IMG/VR virus record: IMGVR_UViG_3300038465_000151
Span: 1 to 22,889 of that record
Source: a virus
Strand: one strand, 5' to 3'
Length of the DNA: 22,889 bases
A model generated the notes under the pieces. That model was not told where the DNA came from. It did not search any database and worked only from the letters and a program-made list of their open reading frames with translations. Position numbers and translations under genes: made by a program. Positions 5,291 through 17,162 of the stretch are shown piece after piece; position 1 is the first letter of the stretch, and every line of letters begins with the position of its first letter.

Positions 5291-6190
5291 TTACGGGGCA
5301 GGGGGTGCGGTCGTTGAGGAAGGCGCCCCGGGCGCGGCAGGCACCGCCTTGACGGGTGCGCCCGGGGCAGAGGGAGCCTGGATGGTCGCGGTCTGGATCG
5401 CCTGCAGGAAGACCGGCATATCGGCCTGCACGGCCTTGATGGCATCCTGGCTGGCGGCTGGCAGCTGCGCCACCGCAGTGGCGATCGCCGCGCCGACGAT
5501 CGGATTCGCGGCCGCCTGATTGAGCTTCGACAGCAGCCCGGTCAGCGCCTGTGTGTGGGCCTCGGATTCCGCATCCTCAGCCAATCCGGCCCGGCTGGTC
5601 AGCAGCCAGTAGATCCCATCGACCACATGGTCGAACAGGGCAATCGCGTTGCCGATCGCCGGACTGCGCCTGGCCAGCGCCGGCTGCACGGTCTTGCCAA
5701 GCGCCAGCAGGACGCCCAGGCCGGTGATGATCCACGGCAGCGCGGTCAGCAGGACGGCCTGCAGATGCGCGATCCATGACAGGCTAGACTCGGCCCGGAT
5801 CGGCGCATCATCGCACCATGCCGCATCGCCGAGGAGGCAGAGAAGCGCAAGGACGGGTAGCTTGGCCAGTGCGGGCGCGATGGCCTGTTGGACCAGGCCG
5901 ACACCGGCCACTGCGGTCGCATTCGCATCCGCCGCCTGCGCGGCCGGGAGTGAGCGCAGTTCAGCGGCGAGCAGCGCGGCCGCGGCGGCTGCCTCGGGGC
6001 TCAGCGCCGGACTGACCGCCGCCGCACCGGCTGCCGCCAACCCAGGGATGACGCCAGCGGCCAGATTCTCCAGACTGCCGATCAGCAGCTGGAGCTCGGA
6101 CGGTGCGGCGCTGAGCGCCGCCGCATCGGTGGCGACAGCCTGATCGAGGGCGGAGGGGATGACCGGCGAACCGGCGGCAGGGGTGGTCAT
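5291..6190 (-). CDS. Ala-rich membrane protein of unknown function, 299 aa
   Basis: I do not recognise this protein. The start is ATG 6190, with AGGA six bases upstream and eight bases after the lipoprotein stop. Residues 1-105 are extremely Ala-rich and low-complexity. Two hydrophobic stretches follow: about 111-125 (LPVLALLCLLGDAAW) and about 143-165 (LQAVLLTALPWIITGLGVLL), separated by a short charged segment. Residues 200-270 are amphipathic helix, and the last 30 residues are Pro/Ala-rich and probably disordered. The first hydrophobic stretch resembles a signal sequence placed internally, which hints at a fusion or a missed internal start. It adjoins a lipoprotein and a TM coiled-coil gene, so a holin-like or envelope role is possible. 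No lytic domain is seen. Confidence 0.6.
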   Translation of the reverse strand: MTTPAAGSPVIPSALDQAVATDAAALSAAPSELQLLIGSLENLAAGVIPGLAAAGAAAVSPALSPEAAAAAALLAAELRSLPAAQAADANATAVAGVGLVQQAIAPALAKLPVLALLCLLGDAAWCDDAPIRAESSLSWIAHLQAVLLTALPWIITGLGVLLALGKTVQPALARRSPAIGNAIALFDHVVDGIYWLLTSRAGLAEDAESEAHTQALTGLLSKLNQAAANPIVGAAIATAVAQLPAASQDAIKAVQADMPVFLQAIQTATIQAPSAPGAPVKAVPAAPGAPSSTTAPPAP

Positions 6191-6198
6191 GGCTGATC

Positions 6199-6447
6199 CT
6201 ATGGGCTCGGGGTGGCGGGGGTGATCGGCACGGGTGAGCCGGCCGGATGAAGCGGCACACCGATCTGCGCGCTGGCGCTCTCAAACGCGATGCAGAGCGC
6301 AGTCTGCGTCGGGCCGGCCGGGACCTCATGCAGGGCCACCTGTTCGCCATCGGCCAACAGCTTGCCGGTCTGGGTCTGGGTCGGCGCGCTGATGACCTGG
6401 CAGCCGGTCAGGGCGAAGCCGCAAAGGATCAGGATGGAAAGGCGCAT
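6199..6447 (-). CDS. Small lipoprotein, possible outer spanin (Rz1-like), 82 aa
   Basis: The N-terminus is a textbook lipoprotein signal: positively charged MR, a hydrophobic core, and the lipobox LTGC with the acylated Cys at residue 16. The mature part is about 67 residues, with a Pro-rich C-terminal end (PLHPAGSPVPITPATP). The start ATG 6447 has AGGA seven bases upstream that overlaps the stop of the preceding gene (TAA then GGA). Coming directly after a one-TM coiled-coil protein, it has the arrangement of separate i-spanin/o-spanin genes, whose products link the two membranes during lysis of Gram-negative hosts. The spanin role is inferred; no endolysin is in the window, and a lipoprotein for exclusion or surface change is also possible. 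Confidence 0.7.
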   Translation of the reverse strand: MRLSILILCGFALTGCQVISAPTQTQTGKLLADGEQVALHEVPAGPTQTALCIAFESASAQIGVPLHPAGSPVPITPATPSP

Positions 6448-6456
6448 CGTGTGTCC

Positions 6457-6870
6457 TTAGGCGGTATGCGTTTGGAACGAGCCGCCGACATTCGGCAGCG
6501 GTGTGCGGTGAGCATGCGGAGGCGTGGCGTCAAAACAAGGGCGCTCGCGCATGACCGACACGATTTGCGAACAGGCCCGCTCCAACGATTCGTTGGACTT
6601 CGTATTGGCATTCAACGCCACACTGTTGCGCTCCAGCACGATGGCGATGCGGGCCGTCTGATTCTTCGATTCGCGCGTGCTCTCTTCGCGCTGGTCGTGA
6701 CATCGCTTCAGTTCTTCGATGATCCGGCGCTTATCGTCCTTTTCCTCGCGCATCGCCTTCAGCATCTGCCGGACATACCAGCGCACCAGGAAGGCGATCA
6801 GGGCAAGCAAAACCCCGGAGAATCCCAGGGCTTTATACATTGCCGGCAGGGCGTCGAGCCATTCGGACAT
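6457..6870 (-). CDS. One-TM coiled-coil protein: inner spanin or BhlA-like holin candidate, 137 aa
   Basis: There is one N-terminal transmembrane segment (about residues 15-33, ALGFSGVLLALIAFLVRWY). A highly charged helix of about 70 residues follows (KAMREEKDDKRRIIEELKRC onward) with heptad character, and then a Pro/His-rich end. The Arg/Lys just after the membrane segment suggests the coiled coil may stay cytoplasmic, as in BhlA/XhlA-type holins; an inner spanin would need it in the periplasm. The lipoprotein gene immediately downstream favours the spanin reading, so the two options remain open. Start ATG 6870 has GGAGAG about ten bases upstream. It follows fibre 2 by 18 bases, a common place for lysis genes in phages. 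Confidence 0.65.
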   Translation of the reverse strand: MSEWLDALPAMYKALGFSGVLLALIAFLVRWYVRQMLKAMREEKDDKRRIIEELKRCHDQREESTRESKNQTARIAIVLERNSVALNANTKSNESLERACSQIVSVMRERPCFDATPPHAHRTPLPNVGGSFQTHTA

Positions 6871-6888
6871 GACAGATACTCTCCGATC

Positions 6889-9800
6889 TTATTGATAGGT
6901 CGGTTCAATGATGTATTCATTGATCGACACCGGGATGGTGGGGAAGGCATCGACGGTCGTCGCTAGAAATGAGGCACTGAATAGGACGCCCGGCGGGCTG
7001 AATGATCCACTGGGTACCGCTGACGTGACGGCTCCCTGCAGGTAGGTGCCGGACGAATCTGATATCGATATGATCATCTGCGAGCCCACATCGCTGGCCA
7101 GCAGCGTATAGGCAGAGCTGAAGGTGCCGGAGAAGACTCCGGGGGTTGACGTAGCCGATACGGCAATGCTGGCGACCTTCGTCGCCACGCTGTTCCACAG
7201 CGAACAGTCGACCGTCTCGGCGGGCCCCGACCAGTAGAACCTGATGCCCTTGATAACGCCCAGCTGCGAGGGGATGAAGGCGCGGCCCGTCGTGCCCGTC
7301 CCGGCGCTGCTCGCAGATGAGAGGTCCAGGTTGCAGGGAGAGAACTGCAGCACGTTGCCGCTGCCGCCGCCGCTCGATGCGATCGTTATATTCGTGCCTG
7401 ATGGCGTCACGGTGATGTTTGATCCGGCGACGATCGTCAGACCGCCGGTCAGGCTATTAAGCGATGAGACCCCGCCGCCGCCGCCGGTCTGCCAGGTCGG
7501 CAGCGCGCTGGCCCCATTGGACGTCAGCACCTGGCCGCTGGTGCCCAGCCCGCTGATCGACTGCACCGCTCCGGTGCTGGTCGTCCCGCCGGCCAGCAGG
7601 CTGTAGGCCGTCAGGCTCGTCTGCCCGCTGCCGCCATTGGCGACCGGCAGGGCCGAGCCGCTGAGGCTGACCGCCAGCGTGCCGCTGGTCGTGATCGGTG
7701 AGCCGCTGACGCTCAGGAAGGCCGGGACGGTGGCCGCAACGCTCGTCACCGTTCCGGTACCGCTCACGGTCTGCCAGGTCGGCAGCGCCGAGGCGCCATT
7801 GGACGTCAGAATCTGGCCGGTCGTGCCCGTGCCGGCATTCTGCCATGCTCCCGTACCGGTCGTGCCGGCAACAATCGTCCCGTAGGCCGTCGAGGTCGTC
7901 AGGCCCGTGCCGCCATTGGCGACCGGGAGGGCGGTCCCGCTCAGACTGATGGCCAGCGTGCCGCTGGTCGTAATCGGCGAGCCGGCGACCGACAGGAAGC
8001 TGGGCACCGATGCGGCCACGCTGGTGACCGTGCCGCTACCGCTCGGGGCAGCCTGCCAGCTGGGCAGCGCGCCGGATCCGTTTGACGTGAGGATCTGGCC
8101 GCTCGTACCCAGGCCGCTGACCTGCTGAAAGGCGCCCGTGCTGGTCGTCCCGCCTGCCATCAGGGCATAGGGCGTATCGGTCACAATCCCCGTCCCACCG
8201 CTGCTGACCGGCAGCGCCGATCCGCTGAGCGTCAGGGCCAGCGTGCCGCTGGTTGTGATCGGCGAACCGGCGACGCTGAGAAATGATGGCACGGTCTGGC
8301 TGACGCTCGTCACCGTGCCGGAGCCGCTGCCGCTTGCCGCAATGGTGATGGCGCCGGCCGCATTCGTCACCGTTATGCCACTGCCGGCCGTCAGCGTAGC
8401 CAGACTGTAGCCGCTTCCGTTGCCGATCGGCAGAGACCCATTGGCCGCGCTGCTCCCATTCAGCCCCGTTCCACCGTACTGCGCCGACAGGGTGCCGCTG
8501 GTGATCTGGCTGGCCGGCAGGCCGGGCACATCGGCCGCAAGCAAGGCGCGGAAGGTGGGCGTCGTGGCGCTGCCGCTCGACGGGCCGGCGAAGACACTGT
8601 TGGCCACCTGATTGCCCGGGCTGCTCGCTACCGTGACGGTCCCACTGCCATTCGTGACGCTGATACCGCTGCCGGCCGTCAGCGTCGTGGCCACCAGGCT
8701 GCCGCTGGACGTCTGGCCGACGAGCAGCTGGCCGTCCGTATAGGATGACTGTCCGGTGCCGCCGCGCGCCACGGCCAGCGTCCCGCTGGTGACCTGGCTG
8801 GCCGGAATGGCGATGGTCGTCTGCGTCGCGCTGGTGGCCCGCCCCTTCGCGTCATAGGTGACGGTCGGTACCGCGATCGCGCTCCCATAGGTGCCCGAGC
8901 TGACGCCCGATGCGCCGAGGGTCGCGGTCGTGCCGCTGGTCGTCAGGTCACCGGTCAGCGCCGGCAGCTCAAGCAGCCAGGCCGATCCGTTGTCGTACCA
9001 GATCTTTCCCGTATCGCTGGCGAAGTAGATCCGCCCGACGATCGAGGCGCTGGGTCTGGAGCCGTCCAGTCCGGTCAGCATAACCGGCGCCCCGCCGCCA
9101 TTCTGGACAGCATCCGTGATGCCGAATCCGCCCAGGGTCGTCGGATTCGTGCCGGCTGTCACAATTCCCTGCGCGTTGACTGTCGCACTTTTATACGTGC
9201 CGGCCGTGACTCCGCTGGTCGGCAGATCTGAATTGAGCAGACTTGCAACGCTGACCGTCCCGCCGCTGCTCGTCTGCTTCAGCAGCTGGCCGGTGCCGCC
9301 CGTGCCGCTCAGATTCGCGCCCGTCCCACCGTTGGCCAGCGGGACGATACCGGAAAGCGTTGTGGCGCTGGCAGTTATTGCGACATTACCGGCAGCTGTC
9401 AGCCGCCCCTTCGCGTCGACGGTCAGCTGGGCAACCTGCGTGGCCGAGCCGAACGTACCGGCTCCGACCCCGCTGGCCGCAAGCGTGGCGGTCGTGCCGC
9501 TGGTCGTCAGATCGCCAGATAGCGATGGCAACAGCAGCGACCAGGCCGAGCCGCTATCCAGATAGAGCGCGCCCGTGTCGGTGCTGACGTAGATCCGGCC
9601 AGCGATCGACGCACTGGGCCGCGCGCTGAATAGTCCGCTGAGCAGCCCTGGGGCGTTGCCGTAGTTGTGCATCCCATCCGTGATCCCATAGCCGCTGAGC
9701 GTCGATGGTGTGGCGCCGGCCGTCACCCGCCCCTTCGCGTCGGTCGTTACCTGCGTATAGGTGCCGGCCGTGCCGACGCTCGCCAGCGTGCCGGCACCGC

Positions 9801-10638
9801 TGCTGGCCAGCGTCAGATCGCCGCTGACCGGCACGCTGGCCCACTGCGTACCGTTGGCCACCATCAGGTGACCGGTCGTCGGCGTCGTGCTGGCCAGCGG
9901 AGCTCCGGACCAGCCGGCGACCACCGGACCCGGATAGGTACCGGACAGATCACCTGATGCCGATCCGTTGGGCGCCCTGGAATTGCTTAGCCGCGCATCA
10001 TTTCCGGCGACCGGCGTGTCCGCACCGGTTCCATAGGTGACGAATTCCCATGCGCCCGAGCCGTTGAGCTTCGGAAAGCTGTTGGCGACGATTCCCGGGA
10101 GCGAAAGGCCGAGGATGCCTCCTACGGTGGGATTCGGATATGAGCCCGCCAGATCGCCTCCGGCGGCTCCCGAGGGCGTACGGGCATCGGTGAACCGGGA
10201 GTCGTTGCCAGCGGCCGGCTGGTCGGCTCCGGTTCCGTAGCTGACGAATTCCCATGCGCCCGAGCCGTTGAGCTTGAGGAAAGCGCCGGTCACGACACCG
10301 GGAAGGGCAAGACCCTTCAGACCCTGCACGGTCGGATTCGGATAGGTGCTGCCCAGGTCTCCGCCGGCCGCGCCGCTCGGCGCGCTGCTGGTCGTCAGGG
10401 CGACCCAGGCGGAGCCGTTGCAGCGGTAGAGCGTCTGCGTGTCGGTCGCCCAGTAGACCTGCCCGCTGATCGGCGTCCCGGCGGCCGGGATGGCCGAATA
10501 GGCGCCGGAAGTCAGCGGGCAGTAGATCGTCTGTCCGGCCTGGACGGGCATCCAGCCTCCGGTGCCGTTCGGCACCAGTGGATGGGCGTCGGCGCCGATC
10601 AGCGCGGCGCTGATGAGTGTCAGTATTAATATACGCAT
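6889..10638 (-). CDS. Giant repetitive tail fibre 2 with signal peptide and DUF4082-like C-terminus, 1249 aa
   Basis: This is a Gly/Ser/Thr-rich phage fibre, presumably an adhesin. ATG 10638 is chosen over GTG 10650: GAGGA lies five bases upstream and the protein then opens with a signal peptide (MRILILTLISAALIGADA). Order of parts: shared N-terminal domain (about 20-85, with YWATDT and GSAWV); two and a half repeats of 68 residues around GDLxGxYPNPTV (87-250); two long repeats of about 188 residues (from about 292); three repeats of about 94 residues beginning GTVTSV (774, 869, 962); and a unique C-terminal domain (about 1110-1249; GIRFYWSGP, LWNS) resembling DUF4082 beta-sandwiches. The repeat vocabulary is typical of phage fibres. 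A Sec leader on a fibre is unusual. No chaperone-like autocleavage domain is recognised. Confidence 0.85.
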   Translation of the reverse strand: MRILILTLISAALIGADAHPLVPNGTGGWMPVQAGQTIYCPLTSGAYSAIPAAGTPISGQVYWATDTQTLYRCNGSAWVALTTSSAPSGAAGGDLGSTYPNPTVQGLKGLALPGVVTGAFLKLNGSGAWEFVSYGTGADQPAAGNDSRFTDARTPSGAAGGDLAGSYPNPTVGGILGLSLPGIVANSFPKLNGSGAWEFVTYGTGADTPVAGNDARLSNSRAPNGSASGDLSGTYPGPVVAGWSGAPLASTTPTTGHLMVANGTQWASVPVSGDLTLASSGAGTLASVGTAGTYTQVTTDAKGRVTAGATPSTLSGYGITDGMHNYGNAPGLLSGLFSARPSASIAGRIYVSTDTGALYLDSGSAWSLLLPSLSGDLTTSGTTATLAASGVGAGTFGSATQVAQLTVDAKGRLTAAGNVAITASATTLSGIVPLANGGTGANLSGTGGTGQLLKQTSSGGTVSVASLLNSDLPTSGVTAGTYKSATVNAQGIVTAGTNPTTLGGFGITDAVQNGGGAPVMLTGLDGSRPSASIVGRIYFASDTGKIWYDNGSAWLLELPALTGDLTTSGTTATLGASGVSSGTYGSAIAVPTVTYDAKGRATSATQTTIAIPASQVTSGTLAVARGGTGQSSYTDGQLLVGQTSSGSLVATTLTAGSGISVTNGSGTVTVASSPGNQVANSVFAGPSSGSATTPTFRALLAADVPGLPASQITSGTLSAQYGGTGLNGSSAANGSLPIGNGSGYSLATLTAGSGITVTNAAGAITIAASGSGSGTVTSVSQTVPSFLSVAGSPITTSGTLALTLSGSALPVSSGGTGIVTDTPYALMAGGTTSTGAFQQVSGLGTSGQILTSNGSGALPSWQAAPSGSGTVTSVAASVPSFLSVAGSPITTSGTLAISLSGTALPVANGGTGLTTSTAYGTIVAGTTGTGAWQNAGTGTTGQILTSNGASALPTWQTVSGTGTVTSVAATVPAFLSVSGSPITTSGTLAVSLSGSALPVANGGSGQTSLTAYSLLAGGTTSTGAVQSISGLGTSGQVLTSNGASALPTWQTGGGGGVSSLNSLTGGLTIVAGSNITVTPSGTNITIASSGGGSGNVLQFSPCNLDLSSASSAGTGTTGRAFIPSQLGVIKGIRFYWSGPAETVDCSLWNSVATKVASIAVSATSTPGVFSGTFSSAYTLLASDVGSQMIISISDSSGTYLQGAVTSAVPSGSFSPPGVLFSASFLATTVDAFPTIPVSINEYIIEPTYQ
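6892..7308 (-). other. DUF4082-like C-terminal domain of fibre 2
   Basis: This segment codes for the last 139 residues of fibre 2, where the Gly/Ser/Thr repeats stop and a unique sequence begins. The pattern of GIRFYW, a following LWNS, and a later strand ending in YTLLASDVG resembles DUF4082 proteins, small beta-sandwich domains found attached to carbohydrate-active or surface proteins. Being at the fibre tip, it is the likely receptor-contact region. The family match is by eye and moderate. Confidence 0.5.
7471..8319 (-). repeat. Three tandem ~94-residue (about 280 bp) repeats in fibre 2
   Basis: Units begin at GTVTSV (fibre residues 774, 869 and 962). Each runs through SPITTSGTLA, a LPVxxGGxG turn, an AGGTTSTGA-type loop and LTSNGxxALPxWQ. 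The spacings are 95 and 93 residues. The copies are close at the DNA level, so unequal recombination could change their number. Confidence 0.9.
9886..10380 (-). repeat. 68-residue (204 bp) repeats in the N-terminal part of fibre 2
   Basis: Two full copies (fibre residues 87-154 and 155-222) and one partial copy share GAAGGDL, YPNPTV, LxLPGxV, KLNGSGAWEFV and YGTGADxPxAGND. The first two are nearly identical in protein. The third begins PNGSASGDLSGTYPGP and breaks off into a different sequence. Confidence 0.9.
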
Positions 10639-10646
10639 GCCATTCC

Positions 10647-11147
10647 TCACATGGGTCCGTTCGGGTAGCCGAATTCTAGAATCGCTTCAGTGGTCGAGAT
10701 AGCGACGCCCAGCCGGGTCGCGTATTTGCCCGATCCGGCGGCCGGCGGGGCGTTGGAAATCCCCCCAGCGGTGCCGAGCCATAGCGGACCGACTGTCAGT
10801 CCGACGAAGCCACGGCAATAGCCGTTGAACTGCACGGTACCCAGCTGGCCGACTGCGATTCCGGCCAGACAGACCGCTACGGCCTGGGCGAGCCCGAGGG
10901 TCGAATCGTCGGCCACTACCAGCTGGCCCGGCACACCGTTGGACGCCAGGATGGCGAAGGCTGGGAAGTTGACGATATCGGAATTCTTCATGGCCCGAAT
11001 GCCGATGCCGGCCAGGTCAGAGAGTAGGACCTTGGACGATACCCCGTTGTCATCTATGACATACAGGACCTCCGTCCCGGTGAAGGGCGGCACGATCTGC
11101 GGCAGCAGACTGACGGGAGAATCCTGGCCGATCAGCGGTGCGGTCAT
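10647..11147 (-). CDS. Fibre-associated protein, paralogue 2, 166 aa
   Basis: This is a probable virion protein working with fibre 2, the next gene. The N-terminus (LLPQIVPPFTGTEVLYVID, then SSKVLLSDL) has the layout common at the head of phage fibre proteins. Residues 105-166 (GFVGLTVGPLWLGTAG, later LGVAISTTEAI) match the end of the 14314-14799 product closely, so the two are paralogues. No signal peptide is present. ATG 11147 overlaps the fibre 1 stop by one base (TAATG), with GGGAG upstream. The stop TGA lies eight bases before the fibre 2 ATG, the same distance as in the other cassette. A capsid decoration role is a less likely option, suggested by the compact beta-type C-terminal domain. 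Confidence 0.7.
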   Translation of the reverse strand: MTAPLIGQDSPVSLLPQIVPPFTGTEVLYVIDDNGVSSKVLLSDLAGIGIRAMKNSDIVNFPAFAILASNGVPGQLVVADDSTLGLAQAVAVCLAGIAVGQLGTVQFNGYCRGFVGLTVGPLWLGTAGGISNAPPAAGSGKYATRLGVAISTTEAILEFGYPNGPM

Positions 11148-14100
11148 TATTTGCTCCCAAAGGTCCAGTAGATGGTCAGGGGGGCGACGCCCTGATTGGT
11201 CAGGGCCGTAGTCGTGGATGTAAGGCGGGTCAGTCCGAAGTCAGCCGTTGAGCCAAAGCTGCCCACCGTGGCCTTCTGGTATCCGGCCGCTGGCGTGATG
11301 GCAAGCGCCACGCTGCTGAGCGTTGGGGTCACGGTACTGGATGACGACTCCAGTCCGTAGGCGAAATCCAGCGACGTTCCGGCGCCGGGCAGGCTGCTGA
11401 TCGGCAGGCTGGTCAGCTGTGTCTGCAGCGTCGACATCGCATTGCCATAGGTGGTCAGATTGGCGCTGCTGAGCGTATGGGACACCCATGCGCTGCCCGA
11501 CCAGGCATACCATGTCGTGCCGGCGTCGGTCGAAATCATTCCGACCAGGGTCTGCGAATTCGCCGCGCTGGTGATCGTCGCCGAGAGGGTTGCGCCCGCA
11601 TAGGCGGTCAGACTAGGAAAGGCGCTGGCGCTGGTGGAATTGTTGATCGTGGTTGCGTAGTAGAGCGTTCCGGTCGGATAGCTGGTGCCACTGGCTATTG
11701 TCACGGTCAAGAGGTTTAACGCGATGCCGCTTCCGCTGACGACTCCAGAGACATTCAGCCTGTAATAGCGATACGAGGCGGCTCCGCTGATGGTGTAATT
11801 CGTGCCGGTCGTAGTCGAACTGGCATTTAGCGCAGATCCCTGCCCGGATCTGCTGTCGAGCGTCGTCCAGGTTGAGTCGTCATTAGATCCTTGGAAGGAC
11901 CAGTTGTTGGGGGTGCTGTTTGTCTGCTGATAGGCGCCGACATTATATGATGTAGCTATGCCCGCGTACCCAGTTCCGACATCCAATGACAGCCAGTAAT
12001 TCGTTGAGGTGCTGCCCTCCCATTGGCCTGCCGCATAGTTGTTCTGGTTAATGAAGGCATGCCATGGGGCGACACCATTACTAGATGGCGTGGCCGCCAT
12101 GTCGGCTGCTACGTATGGCGATGGGGCGGTATTGGAGGTCAGCGGAACCTTCGGAAATGTGCCGCCGCTTGTGCCTGTGCCATAAAGACTCAGCACCCCG
12201 CTGGCGATCTGCGTCCCGCTGCTGGAATTCTGCTGTGTCCAGGTGCTGCCTGGTGTCAGGGTGTAGTTGTGAACGCTCGGGCTACTGATGTATTTGGCAA
12301 CGGTGGTGAACCACTGTTCGCTGGTGACTGCCGAATGCGTCAGCAGCACCGTATCGCCCGGGGTTCCGAGGGAATTCAGCGTCACCGGCGTGCCGGTGGG
12401 CTGGGCAAAATTCAGACCAGTTCCGCTGCTTCCTGCGGCCCAGATGGGCAGCGCGGCAGCGCCCTGACTGGTCAGGACCTGACCGCTGGTACCCAGGCCG
12501 CTGACCTGTTGGAGCGCGCCCGTTGAGGTCGTGCCGCCGGTCAGCACCCCATAGGCGGTCAGCGTAGCGACGCCCGTTCCGCCATTGGCCACCGGCAGCG
12601 TACCGGATACGTCGGTGCTGAGCGCAACGGCCCCGTAGGACGGCGAGCCGCTGGCGTTGCCATGCAGGACCGTGGTCGTCGTGCCGGCGCTGCCCTGCAC
12701 GACCGCCGTCCCGTTGCTGACCATGATCGTATTGCCGCTCAGGGCCGTGGTCGAATTCGTTCCGCCGTTGGCGATCGGCAGAGCCGTGCCGGATAGGCTG
12801 ATGGCAAGCGTGCCGCTGCTGGTCACCGGCGAGCCGCTGACACTGAGGAAGGCCGGCACGCTGGCCGCGACGCTGGTCACATAGCTGAGCGCCGGGATGT
12901 CGGCGGCGACCAGCGCGCGGAATGCACTCGCAGCCGCGCTGCCGGTCGACGGACCGGCCAGCACGGTATTTGCCGTCTGGGCCGTAGCGGTCAGCGCCAG
13001 CGTGCCGGATGTCGTCACCGGGGAGCCGCCGACCGTCAGCCAGCTGGGCGCCGATGCCGCGACGGAGGTCACGGAGCCGTTGCCCGTCCCGGCGCCGATA
13101 TTCGTGCGGGCCGTGCTCGCGCTGGTGACGTCGCTAAGATTATTCGACGCAACCAGATAGGTGGCCGGCAGGTCGGCGGCGACGAGGGTCCGGAAGGTGG
13201 GCGCAGCCGCGCTGCCGGTCGTCGGGCTGGCCCAGACCTGATTGGCCGTCTGGGTCGCCAGCGTGCCGGTCAGCGTGCCGCTACTGGTCACCGGGCTGCC
13301 GCTGACACTGAAGATCGCCGGCAGGGCCAGACCGACGCTCGTCACCCCGCTGGCCGCCGCATTCTGCCAGCTGGGCAGCGCCGAGGCGCCATTACTCATC
13401 AGCACCTGGCCGGAGGTTCCGAGTCCGGCGAGCGATTGGAGGGCCCCGGTCGATGTCGTTCCACCGGCCAGCAGCGCATAGGCGGTCGCCGAGGTCTCCC
13501 CCGTGCCACCATTCGCCACCGGCAGCGCGGTTCCGCTGAGACTGATCGCCAGCGTGCCGGATCCGGTCACCGGACTGCCGGCGATGCTCAGAAACGAGGG
13601 CACGGAGGCGCCGACGCTCGTCACCGTACCGTTGCCCGTGCCGGCTCCGAGGTTCGACCGAGCCGTTGCCGCGTTGGCCACGTCGCTGAGGTTGTTGGCG
13701 ACCTGCAGGAAGGTGCCGGTGGCCTGCGTGGCTGCCGTCCCGAGTCCCAGATTAGTCCGCGCCGCCGACGCGCTGGCCAGGTCGCTCAGGTTGTTGGCCT
13801 TCTGCGCGCTGCTTGCCAGCACGGCCGCCGCCGCCCCGGTGGCGTCATAGGGCAGCGCCGGGATGTCGCTAGAGGTCAGGGCGCGGAAAGTCGGCTGCGC
13901 CGCCCCGCCGCTGATCGGGCCAGCCCAGACGGCACCGGGGCTTTGGGTCGTCAGCGCGGCCGACAGCGTGCCGCTACTGGTCACCGGGCTGCCGGTCACG
14001 GAGAAGATGCCGGGCAGCGCCAGACCGACGCTCGAGACAGTGCCCGACCCTCCGCTGGCGACCGGGACCCAGGCCGATCCGGTGCTCCGGTAGATCAGAT

Positions 14101-14305
14101 TAGTATCCGTCGCCCAGTAGAGCATGGCGACGTTGCTCGCCGCCGGACTGGGCAGCGCGGAAAACAGCCCGCTGGTCAACGGTACGTTGAGCGTGTCGCC
14201 CTGGCTGATCTGCTGCGGTTGCCCCTGCGGGCCCAGGACCAGCGGATATTGATCGGCACCGATCAGCGCCAAGCCGAGGCACATCAGGACTGCGATTCTG
14301 ATCAT
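11147..14305 (-). CDS. Giant repetitive tail fibre 1 with signal peptide and discoidin (F5/8 type C) domain, 1052 aa
   Basis: The ATG at 14305, behind GAGG, gives a protein opening with a clean signal peptide (MIRIAVLMCLGLALIGADQ); GTG 14317 would add four residues. The N-terminal domain (about 20-86) matches fibre 2 (PLTSGxxSAxP, YWATDT, GSAWV). Residues 86-628 are fibre repeats: TVTSV/SPVTSSGTL units alternating with NNLSDVxxAxTARxNLG and LPVANGGTG units. Residues about 721-871 form a discoidin-like domain: STNYWLSLDVG, NWSFQGSNDDSTWTTLDSRS and SYRYYRLNVSG are the standard F5/8C signature, a fold that binds sugars or glycans. A further beta region follows to the end. This makes it a strong receptor-binding candidate. 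The Sec leader is unexpected for a cytoplasmically assembled phage fibre. Confidence 0.87.
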   Translation of the reverse strand: MIRIAVLMCLGLALIGADQYPLVLGPQGQPQQISQGDTLNVPLTSGLFSALPSPAASNVAMLYWATDTNLIYRSTGSAWVPVASGGSGTVSSVGLALPGIFSVTGSPVTSSGTLSAALTTQSPGAVWAGPISGGAAQPTFRALTSSDIPALPYDATGAAAAVLASSAQKANNLSDLASASAARTNLGLGTAATQATGTFLQVANNLSDVANAATARSNLGAGTGNGTVTSVGASVPSFLSIAGSPVTGSGTLAISLSGTALPVANGGTGETSATAYALLAGGTTSTGALQSLAGLGTSGQVLMSNGASALPSWQNAAASGVTSVGLALPAIFSVSGSPVTSSGTLTGTLATQTANQVWASPTTGSAAAPTFRTLVAADLPATYLVASNNLSDVTSASTARTNIGAGTGNGSVTSVAASAPSWLTVGGSPVTTSGTLALTATAQTANTVLAGPSTGSAAASAFRALVAADIPALSYVTSVAASVPAFLSVSGSPVTSSGTLAISLSGTALPIANGGTNSTTALSGNTIMVSNGTAVVQGSAGTTTTVLHGNASGSPSYGAVALSTDVSGTLPVANGGTGVATLTAYGVLTGGTTSTGALQQVSGLGTSGQVLTSQGAAALPIWAAGSSGTGLNFAQPTGTPVTLNSLGTPGDTVLLTHSAVTSEQWFTTVAKYISSPSVHNYTLTPGSTWTQQNSSSGTQIASGVLSLYGTGTSGGTFPKVPLTSNTAPSPYVAADMAATPSSNGVAPWHAFINQNNYAAGQWEGSTSTNYWLSLDVGTGYAGIATSYNVGAYQQTNSTPNNWSFQGSNDDSTWTTLDSRSGQGSALNASSTTTGTNYTISGAASYRYYRLNVSGVVSGSGIALNLLTVTIASGTSYPTGTLYYATTINNSTSASAFPSLTAYAGATLSATITSAANSQTLVGMISTDAGTTWYAWSGSAWVSHTLSSANLTTYGNAMSTLQTQLTSLPISSLPGAGTSLDFAYGLESSSSTVTPTLSSVALAITPAAGYQKATVGSFGSTADFGLTRLTSTTTALTNQGVAPLTIYWTFGSK
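11693..12145 (-). other. Discoidin / F5/8 type C domain in fibre 1
   Basis: This segment encodes fibre 1 residues about 721-871. The conserved features are the YWLSLDVG strand, the GSNDDSTWTTLDSRSGQ turn-strand, and the closing YRYYRLNVSG strand, in the right order and spacing. Domains of this family usually bind galactose-type or other surface glycans, so it probably defines the target of fibre 1. Confidence 0.8.
12422..14050 (-). repeat. Degenerate internal repeats of fibre 1
   Basis: These are five TVTSV-like units (near fibre residues 88, 226, 320, 410 and 475), three NNLSDV-type units (near 173, 205 and 388) and LPVANGGTG/LGTSGQVL units (near 262 and 570). They share their vocabulary with the fibre 2 repeats, but the order is shuffled and the copies are more diverged. 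Confidence 0.85.
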
Positions 14306-14313
14306 GGGTCGCC

Positions 14314-14799
14314 TCACCGGTAGAGCGATGGAAAGCCGGGCTGAAAGATGATTTCCGTGGCGCTGATGGCTCGACCCAGCGGGACGTTGTACTGGCCGGC
14401 CACGTTGGGCGGATTGGCCGAGCAGATGATCGTGCCCGCGGCACCGAGCCAGATCGGGCCTGCGGTCAGTCCGACGAAGCCGCTCACGTATCCGACCGTA
14501 GCGATTCCGGCCGTCTGATCTACGGCCTGCATGGTCAGCGCGATGCCCTGCGCGAACGCTTCCGCCCAGGTGCCGTCAGGGATGCAGACCAGCGCCGCTC
14601 CGGCCGCCTGCAGGCTGACCACCATACCGGGCGTGAAGGCCTCGGCGTCGACATTTTCCACCTGGATCTGACCCAGGCTGGCCAGCAGCTCGCCCACCGT
14701 GATGGCGAAGCTGGCCGTCCCGGTATCGATCTCCAGCAGCGCGCCGCTGGGCAGCCCGCTGACCAGTTGATTCATGTCCGAAATTTTCTCGTAGATCAT
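14314..14799 (-). CDS. Fibre-associated protein, paralogue 1, 161 aa
   Basis: ATG 14799 (MIYEKISDM) is chosen because it overlaps the upstream stop as ATGA and follows a run of five Gs; a reading from 14865 would lie mostly inside the upstream gene. The N-terminus (ISDMNQLVSGLPSGALLEID, then FAITVGELL) resembles the opening of phage fibre proteins. Residues about 103-161 (GYVSGFVGLTAGPIWLG, later PLGRAISATEIIFQPG) match the end of the 10647-11147 product. It is probably a virion component paired with fibre 1, whose ATG lies eight bases beyond its stop. The protein has no signal peptide although its partner does. Exact role unknown. Confidence 0.7.
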   Translation of the reverse strand: MIYEKISDMNQLVSGLPSGALLEIDTGTASFAITVGELLASLGQIQVENVDAEAFTPGMVVSLQAAGAALVCIPDGTWAEAFAQGIALTMQAVDQTAGIATVGYVSGFVGLTAGPIWLGAAGTIICSANPPNVAGQYNVPLGRAISATEIIFQPGFPSLYR

Positions 14800-15446
14800 G
14801 CCGACCCCCAGACGATCCGAGCCGAACCGTCCCATGTTGTGCGCTGATATCCGCGCCTGGTGCATCGACTGATCGGCAGGACCTCGGTCCCAAGATTCTG
14901 CGGCGCCTCTAGGAGCAGTGCGCCGCCGCTCTCCAGCAGCAGGCAGCCGGGGCGGTCCTCCAGCATGATCCGGCCCGGCACAACGCCCAGGCTGCTGGCG
15001 TCCATCGTGTTCTCACAGCTGATCTGGGCCTCCAGCTGGTGACCGATCACGCCCGGCTTGAATTCGCCAATCTGCTCCGCCCCCCATTTCTGCCGGATAT
15101 TGTTCCGGATGACGGCCAGCAGGGTCGAGCAGATGAGCCGCGCCTGCCGCTCGGCCAGCTGACTGTCCACCTGGCCGACATGGACGCGGATCTTCCATCG
15201 GGATGTGACGAATCCGGCAGAAAAGCTAGTTCGGTGCGGCTCTTCTCCGACCTGCCAGATCTCAACCATGGGCAGCCGGCCGCGGTGCAGCCCGAACAGG
15301 TAACCCTGCTTGTTTGCGCCGATGACCCGCGGGCTGGCGACCGAGCCCCAGACGGCAACAGAAACCCCCGCCGCATTGGCTACGGTGGGGGATTGGGCTA
15401 GCGCGATCATTTCGGCCAGCCCCGTGCTGTGTACCGTTTCGGTCAC
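14796..15446 (-). CDS. Hypothetical virion protein, possible neck or tail-terminator-type protein, 216 aa
   Basis: The family is not recognised. The start is GTG 15446, with GAGG about nine bases upstream; the next in-frame ATG lies 12 codons in. The N-terminal half contains a stretch with strands and a helix (KIRVHVGQVDSQLAERQARL, about residues 85-105) reminiscent of tail terminator proteins. The segment GCLLLESGGALLLEAP (about 165-181) is a phrase common in phage virion proteins. There is no signal peptide or membrane segment. It follows the secreted Ala/Lys-rich gene and overlaps fibre-associated paralogue 1 by four bases, so translation is coupled to the fibre cassette. Function is open. 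Confidence 0.55.
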   Translation of the reverse strand: MTETVHSTGLAEMIALAQSPTVANAAGVSVAVWGSVASPRVIGANKQGYLFGLHRGRLPMVEIWQVGEEPHRTSFSAGFVTSRWKIRVHVGQVDSQLAERQARLICSTLLAVIRNNIRQKWGAEQIGEFKPGVIGHQLEAQISCENTMDASSLGVVPGRIMLEDRPGCLLLESGGALLLEAPQNLGTEVLPISRCTRRGYQRTTWDGSARIVWGSA

Positions 15447-15473: not shown

Positions 15474-15890
15474 TTAGGCAGCGGGCGGCACAGGGGCTGC
15501 GGCAGCCTTTGCCTTCTTGGCCTTATCGGCCCGCCAGGCGGCCAGCAGGTCGGCGTTCATCAGCTTGGTATCCGCCGCATCCTGGTCGGCCTGGGCCTTC
15601 GCCGCAGCGTCCAGGACGGGCTTCCGCGACACCGCACGGGCCGCCGCCGTATCGATCGCGGTCTGCTCGGTCACCGAAATGGCGTCGAAGCCGAGCGCCT
15701 TGTATTCGGTCAGCGTCTCGGCGTCGTAGCTGACGATCGCCGATTCGGTGCCCTTCCGCACCGTGATGGTCTGCGGCCTGCCGTTGAGCAGATTAGCGCG
15801 ATCAAGCGCCTGATTCTTGGTCGGGAATGGCGCGGGGTTGATCGCGGCGCACACGCTGAGCGCGAAGCAGACGAGGATGATGGTCAGCAT
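15474..15890 (-). CDS. Secreted Ala/Lys-rich hypothetical protein, 138 aa
   Basis: Residues 1-16 (MLTIILVCFALSVCAA) are a likely signal peptide with cleavage before INPAP, although the N-terminus lacks a basic residue. The middle (about 25-75) is a compact domain with an ITVRKGTESAIVSYDAETL segment. Residues 80-138 form an Ala/Asp/Lys-rich helix ending in a Pro/Ala tail. No family is recognised. ATG 15890 has AGGAGA about ten bases upstream. The gene sits right after the major capsid gene, a spot usually held by head-decoration or connector genes, so an exported product here is surprising. It is separated from the capsid gene by a perfect hairpin. Confidence 0.62.
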   Translation of the reverse strand: MLTIILVCFALSVCAAINPAPFPTKNQALDRANLLNGRPQTITVRKGTESAIVSYDAETLTEYKALGFDAISVTEQTAIDTAAARAVSRKPVLDAAAKAQADQDAADTKLMNADLLAAWRADKAKKAKAAAAPVPPAA

Positions 15891-15965: not shown

Positions 15966-17162
15966 TTACTTGCCGATCCAGACCTTGGACAGCTCGGGGC
16001 GGGTCACCGTGCCGCCGTAGACATACTGCAGTTCGAACTGGTTCTTGAGGTAGCCCTCATAGTAGGCCAGCCGCATTGCCAGTCCGGTCTTCGGGTCCAT
16101 GAAGATCGCCGATTCCTTGGCCATATCGCCACCGGGCGGCATGGCGGTCGGCCGAACGGCGAGCTTCATCGCCTGGCTATGGAAGCAGGGCAGGCGCCGA
16201 CCGGCGGCCACAACCGTGACGGCTGCGTTGATGGCATTGATCTGGGCCACATAGCCCACATTCGTGCCCGGCCGGTTGCCGACGCTGAGGGTCAGGACGC
16301 CCGGAGCGGCGAAGCCGCCGGGGGTGAGGCCCGCAACGTAGTTGGTCGCATCGCCAGCGATCTGCACGATATCGCCCGGCAGGATGGTTCCGGTGCCGGT
16401 CTTGAGGGTCAGCGTCGCATCGCCGACCGCAGTCGCGACGCTGAGCAGATAGTTCTCCGCGGTGCCGACTGTCACGGGGGCGAGCAGCTGATCGAAGTTG
16501 ACGCCAATGCCCTGCAGCATGCCGATCATGCCCTGGCGGAGCATCTCGTCGTTGCCCGATTTCTGGACTTCAATCAGCAGCGGATTCTGGCTCAGCTGGC
16601 CATAGGCCGTGGTGCTCAGGATGCCGAACCGATCGGACAGCGGGGCCAGCGAATCATTGAGGTATTGCACCATCTGCTCCCAGTTGGGCAGCAGGCCCTG
16701 GATGGCAGTCGGCGCGGCGAACGGATCGGACCCGGCCGTACCGATGGCCGACGTAGCGCCAGCGGCCAGCAGGGCGTAGCCGAATACCGCGATTTCATTT
16801 CGCGCCACCCGCATCGCCTCCTTGAGCGAATTCGGCACGAAGCCGGGCGTCGGGGTCGGCGACTCGAGGGCCATGTAATCGTCACCGCTCAGGAAGAACT
16901 TCACGGCCCGCTGCTTCGTGAATGTGACGTTGACATTAGTCAGCGTCTCGGTCTGGCCTTCGATCGGGATGACGCCCGGCACGATGTCGACCGCAGTCAG
17001 GATGGGCGTGATCGGGGTCAGGATATTCTGACCCAGCGCGGCCGGAACGGTGCTGAATTCCGTGTCGGCAAGGCCATTCAAGACAGCCGCGTTTTCCTCA
17101 AGGATGGGCATAAAGCCCTCATTGATCGCGCGAGTGATCGCGTTGACGTTATTGATGGCCAT
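15966..17162 (-). CDS. Major capsid protein, P22 coat-like, 398 aa
   Basis: This is the main shell protein (HK97 fold, P22 coat branch). ATG 17162 lies behind AGGAG. Features in order: an N-terminal helix (ITRAINEGFMPILEENAAVL); the N-arm/E-loop region with VPGVIPIEGQTETLTNVNVTF (about 61-82); a helix with LKEAMRVARNEIAVFGYALL (113-132); an inserted beta domain at about 234-315 (GDATLTLKTGTGTILPGDIV), the counterpart of the P22 I-domain; and the closing FHSQAMKLAVRPTAMPPGG and TGLAMRLAYYEGYL (328-373), typical of P22-like coats. Length and position after the scaffold gene agree. No decoration or protease domain is fused. The combination with siphovirus-type tail genes is a mosaic. Confidence 0.92.
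   Translation of the reverse strand: MAINNVNAITRAINEGFMPILEENAAVLNGLADTEFSTVPAALGQNILTPITPILTAVDIVPGVIPIEGQTETLTNVNVTFTKQRAVKFFLSGDDYMALESPTPTPGFVPNSLKEAMRVARNEIAVFGYALLAAGATSAIGTAGSDPFAAPTAIQGLLPNWEQMVQYLNDSLAPLSDRFGILSTTAYGQLSQNPLLIEVQKSGNDEMLRQGMIGMLQGIGVNFDQLLAPVTVGTAENYLLSVATAVGDATLTLKTGTGTILPGDIVQIAGDATNYVAGLTPGGFAAPGVLTLSVGNRPGTNVGYVAQINAINAAVTVVAAGRRLPCFHSQAMKLAVRPTAMPPGGDMAKESAIFMDPKTGLAMRLAYYEGYLKNQFELQYVYGGTVTRPELSKVWIGK

Follow-up and report, generated by a model that had tools for sequence, protein, structure and literature searches.

Export-signal-like leaders on both tail fibres of an environmental tailed phage

Textbook tailed phages finish their fibres in the cytoplasm. Why, then, should both tail fibres of one such phage begin with a sequence resembling a bacterial export signal? 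The question is raised by two paralogous genes in the window, the whole stretch of 22,889 bases analysed here, which is an environmental virus record with all its main genes on the minus strand.

The fibre genes and their leaders

The genes in the window are ordered as TerL, portal, scaffold, P22-like coat, a 10-kb block, connector, tail genes, and an open tape-measure gene, several of these names being assigned from order and size. The coat matches those of phages such as Caulobacter DMCA and Acinetobacter qsb1 at 22–29%. Since no fibre lies between coat and connectors in the three coat relatives examined, the 10-kb block looks like an insertion. It encodes a 138-aa protein, a 216-aa protein, two successive pairs of a partner protein and a fibre (fibre 1, then fibre 2), a transmembrane (TM) protein, a lipoprotein, and a second TM protein; the last three may be lysis genes. 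A 299-aa protein that is rich in Ala and Pro and has a hydrophobic segment in its interior is encoded at window positions 5291–6190. The virus is known from environmental contigs only. Scans of viral contigs with coat and TerL for a host returned solely L009 (99.94%), the same virus in another assembly, and a host search of 388 genomes from the phylum of contig L101 gave no match, a scan that was run without a positive control and says little.

Table 1. Features of the window discussed in the text.
Feature	Positions	Strand	Remarks
Major capsid protein, P22-coat-like	15966..17162	-	PHROG 283, E 7.4e-46
138-aa protein	15474..15890	-	very hydrophobic N-terminus (MLTIILVCFALSVCAAINPAP) without basic n-region
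Partner upstream of fibre 1, 183-aa ORF	14314..14865	-	161 aa from ATG 14799; no leader
Fibre 1, 1052 aa from ATG 14305	11147..14305	-	leader, N-terminal ATDT domain, ANGGTG and NLSDL repeats
Leader of fibre 1	14240..14305	-	MIRIAVLMCLGLALIGA, then DQYPL; predicted cut at about residues 17/18
Partner upstream of fibre 2, 166 aa	10647..11147	-	leaderless
Fibre 2, 1249 aa from ATG 10638	6889..10638	-	leader, N-terminal ATDT domain and further ATDT-like units, ANGGTG repeats
Leader of fibre 2	10576..10638	-	MRILILTLISAALIGADA, then HPL (or predicted cut after LIGA)
137-aa protein	6457..6870	-	one TM segment, then charged stretch; inner-membrane spanin or holin candidate; Pfam matches sub-cutoff only
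82-aa protein	6199..6447	-	lipoprotein signal (LTGC); outer-membrane spanin candidate

Both products carry a repeat shaft related to known tail fibres. Fibre 1 matches the PHROG 17517 tail protein and the solved short tail fibre gp92 (9zd7, E 7.7e-18), and fibre 2 matches the PHROG 31660 tail fiber protein (E 2.4e-16). A Pfam search of both gave nothing above cutoff; the weak F5/8 type C (galactose-binding-like) match at about residues 747–862 of fibre 1 falls below it (F5_F8_type_C_2, E 0.09). No N-terminal virion-attachment module was recognised on the fibres themselves, and PHROG and Pfam searches found no lysis domain in them. An AlphaFold model of fibre 1 residues 655–880 (pLDDT 34) was too poor for use. 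The earlier note called the fibres giant, a word that fits large fibres at most, and nothing suggests a giant phage.

Fibre 1 begins with MIRIAVLMCLGLALIGADQYPLV and fibre 2 with MRILILTLISAALIGADAHPLV. Sequence inspection confirmed the resemblance of both to a bacterial export signal; the earlier note is correct on the starts and lengths of the products and on their leaders, including the basic N-terminus, the hydrophobic core, ALIGAD, and PLV. A Sec/signal peptidase I substrate was defined by a basic n-region, an h-region of 7–15 residues, and small residues at −3 and −1. Both leaders have a basic n-region, an h-region of about 14 residues, which is short for a membrane anchor, and a plausible cut site. 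Their scores of 46.4 and 47.7, from a purpose-written rule-based scorer, lie within the range of ten E. coli secreted proteins (37.5–50.0), and three cytoplasmic proteins received no score. The n-region is short, with one Arg, and the −3/−1 pair is modest in fibre 1 (Ile, Ala) and good in fibre 2 (Ala-Asp-Ala). The scorer found no lipobox Cys after the h-region in either fibre. A lipoprotein reading of the fibres was thereby ruled out; the lipobox is found in the 82-aa protein instead.

GTGAGG stands upstream of both ATGs (14305 and 10638). Each gene also has an in-frame GTG 12 nucleotides upstream of the ATG, overlapping the stop of the preceding gene, and a start there would yield only a more basic n-region, with a fibre 2 score of 50.7. 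The leaders are identical at 13 of 22 aligned residues (59%), ALIGAD and PLV included, against 24 of 63 (38%) in the domain behind. For six of these 13 identities the codons differ, indicating that the protein sequence was kept while the DNA drifted, and all changes in the core stay hydrophobic or small. These figures bear out the argument that paralogues keeping the leader reflect selection; as the fibres are paralogues, the two leaders do not count as independent events.

The leaderless partners are themselves paralogues (35%). Duplication copied partner and fibre together, and each fibre gene, fibre 1 after the 183-aa partner included, retains a GTG overlapping its partner's stop. The N-terminus of the 166-aa partner weakly resembles ISxLPxxxxLxGTExxPIVQxGxTxKV, a segment at the N-terminus of leaderless fibres, with a score of 11.8 bits that none of 5000 shuffles reached and an E of 0.15 against 4114 ORFs. 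The 183-aa partner alone gave no significant match to this fibre module, nor did a profile of both partners against fibre N-termini on its own (hhalign E 0.056); an AlphaFold model of the partner (pLDDT 35) was too poor for use. It is possible that the partners are docks for exported fibres, as the segment in one of the two, the 166-aa protein, suggests.

Leader-bearing fibres in other phages

Other leader-bearing fibres were sought in contigs collected by repeat motifs shared with the queries, by inspection of the N-termini. At the best-supported start, 13 of 227 fibre-like ORFs from other contigs bear a leader and 214 do not; this is not a natural frequency, because sampling followed motifs and some queries (L010, L101, L169) were picked for having a leader. 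Among non-fibre ORFs, 24 of 984 (∼2%) score at least 36 at the best-supported start (Fisher p 0.016 for the two rates), several of the 24 being fibre- or spike-like themselves. The 13 include two chromosomal cases, L096 and L100, which were not counted as phage. These apparently non-phage proteins (L096 3843–7334, Holophagaceae; L100 from 1649, a Bacteroidetes MAG) combine a leader with ANGGTG repeats, and it is possible that phage fibres and secreted bacterial proteins exchange parts.

The individual cases are a stronger point than the survey rate. Leader-bearing fibres or spikes occur in unrelated phages (L010, L304, L334, L099, L101/L103, L104, L163, L169, L062, L268, L312, L328). The L099 gene comes after a tape-measure gene and tail genes, the L169 gene after tape-measure-like and baseplate-like ones. 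Leader-bearing genes are consecutive in L104 (three) and L163 (two); in L062 the fibre is leaderless, and a leader is found on a distinct spike-like protein. L010, L304, and L334 have an EEDGSP/EEDGAP mature domain in common behind unrelated hydrophobic cores. That phage fibres normally lack a leader, as the earlier note held, thus stands as a rule, but the exception recurs in so many unrelated phages that leader-bearing fibres form a class and are not an oddity of one genome. In L010, the coat region and the leader-bearing fibre are separated by a glycosyltransferase-like and a radical-SAM-like gene (7716–9301), both named by eye from motifs. Another phage contig encodes a leader-bearing protein made up largely of Asn/Thr/Ser repeats (L092, 1911–2930).

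Cellulophaga phages add cases with virion records. In phi39:1, gp25 begins with MRKLILFFGLIFCLEMAAQ and gp26 with MKNFIYLVLLFFSVASYGQ; the gp25 leader was counted by eye, having been missed by the scorer owing to a Glu in its core. These two proteins, gp93 and gp94 of phi10:1, and gp08 of phiSM, all products of fibre or pectate-lyase genes, bear leaders and are listed as virion proteins by MS/MS, according to notes in their database records; co-purification with virions is possible for secreted proteins. The leaderless fibre gp30 of phiST carries the same C-terminal enzyme tip as the leader-bearing gp26 of phi39:1 (L181 2030–5776, L183 2001–4034), and enzyme tips evidently move between leader-bearing and leaderless fibres.

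Signal peptidase I of Bacteroidetes is distinguished by a Q rule, Gln after the cut, which has been applied to Porphyromonas phage genes of unknown function (PMC10367356). For phages whose hosts are Bacteroidota, known or presumed, 12 distinct leaders were compared, seven from Cellulophaga phages and five from L104 and L163, and every one has Gln following the predicted cut, which is good evidence that these leaders are real peptidase substrates. The window leaders depart from the Q rule, having Asp or His at +1, as would fit a different host.

Export and attachment to the virion

The best explanation, to which we give a probability just short of even, is that the fibres undergo Sec export, mature in the periplasm, and join the virion at or after lysis, perhaps via a partner. 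The leaders would act as working Sec signal peptides; the fibres would be made in the cytoplasm and then translocated, probably with cleavage by signal peptidase I, and the mature fibres would form in the periplasm. Virions would meanwhile be assembled in the cytoplasm without fibres, and mature fibres would join the particles at or after lysis, possibly docking on the leaderless 166- and 183-aa partners as a virion-side base. Export followed by attachment is proposed because functional-looking leaders are combined with virion membership. For the window phage we infer that the fibres are translocated, cleaved, and located on the virion, that the partners serve as docks, and that attachment has this timing. 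The Cys content may also bear on the compartment. The mature part of the L010 fibre has 12 Cys, mostly in close pairs, and that of fibre 2 has four (40, 73, 1102, 1145), all absent from fibre 1. The residues of L010, and perhaps of fibre 2, fit an oxidising compartment, as expected for disulfides; fibre 1, with no Cys in its mature part, is uninformative.

Several observations count against export followed by attachment, namely the short n-region, the modest cut site of fibre 1, its lack of mature Cys, the weak partner match, and MS/MS evidence that comes from other phages with other hosts. A periplasmic fibre must also find its virion after lysis, for which no precedent was found in the literature searched. 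The main rival is that the exported fibres stay with the host envelope or pass into the medium as adhesins, receptor blockers against superinfection, or decoys, and are not virion parts. Signal-peptide genes of unknown function in Porphyromonas phages have been read in this way (PMC10367356), and the block also encodes a lipoprotein and other membrane proteins. We consider it rather unlikely, given that the window fibres match virion fibres, the solved short tail fibre among them, that they lie in a structural operon alongside leaderless partners, and that analogous leader-bearing proteins are listed in virions.

It is distinctly unlikely that the fibres remain cytoplasmic and keep the hydrophobic N-terminus uncleaved, as a virion anchor or assembly segment. 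The short n-region, the conservation of ALIGAD and PLV as sequence, and the lack of a strong canonical cut site in fibre 1 would suit such a segment, but the leaders score like secreted controls and the core varies freely on a conserved mature domain in L010, L304, and L334. Moreover, all 12 leaders examined for the Q rule follow a host cleavage signature that a mere anchor would not need. Retention of exported fibres in the periplasm or at the inner membrane, chiefly to time some event at lysis, with virion attachment secondary, is very improbable: the fibre genes adjoin a spanin- or holin-like pair, but lysis genes commonly adjoin tail operons and the fibres contain no lysis domain. Barely credible is a wrong start codon or a chance resemblance, the real protein having no leader. 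Some 2% of other ORFs do score equally, but the ribosome-binding sites, the coupling to the upstream gene, and the codon-level conservation in both paralogues oppose this reading. Among the three options offered in the earlier note, virion assembly after export is thus best supported, favoured by analogy with the Cellulophaga virion records, whereas the virion anchor has become less likely, and the note's interpretation as a whole is partly supported.

A broader proposal is more tentative: a recurring class of tailed phages may assemble the virion, fibre base included, in the cytoplasm while the distal fibre is Sec-exported, folded and oxidised in the periplasm, the two meeting at lysis. Some phage tails may include a part that is produced outside the cytoplasm and added to the particle at a late stage. 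If a sizeable minority of phages export receptor-binding parts, ideas on how their fibres are assembled, which chaperones they use, how disulfides form in them, and when host range is displayed would have to be revised, and typing or receptor studies that express such fibres may be working with wrongly processed protein. The question can be tested directly on isolates already available, the Cellulophaga phages. A search of open papers found no description of phage fibres with signal peptides, and the Nekkels paper does not mention signal peptides; given that restriction to open papers, leader-bearing phage fibres are an under-described class rather than a proven first discovery.

Relation to known systems

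The coat proteins of filamentous phages carry a signal peptide and are added to the virion outside the cytoplasm. Those phages are extruded through membrane assembly, whereas the window phage is tailed with a P22-like coat. The window fibres share repeat architecture and PHROG tail matches with the ANGGTG/NLSDL-repeat tail fibres (PHROG 31660 and 17517; gp92, PDB 9zd7). Nearly all of those surveyed lack a leader, which the window fibres have in addition, and the fibre-base-like module sits on a separate protein in the window. Phages of Porphyromonas gingivalis likewise encode proteins with Sec signals matched to the host peptidase; these were described as products of capsid, spanin, or unknown genes, with a role proposed at the host surface, and not as fibres (PMC10367356). 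The fibres and pectate-lyase spikes of Cellulophaga phages (phi39:1 gp25/gp26, phi10:1 gp93/gp94, phiSM gp08/gp09) resemble the window fibres in being large structural proteins with a Sec-type leader encoded in a tail operon. No sequence kinship between the two groups was found, and the Q rule applies to the Cellulophaga leaders only; five of those six proteins are recorded in virions by MS/MS.
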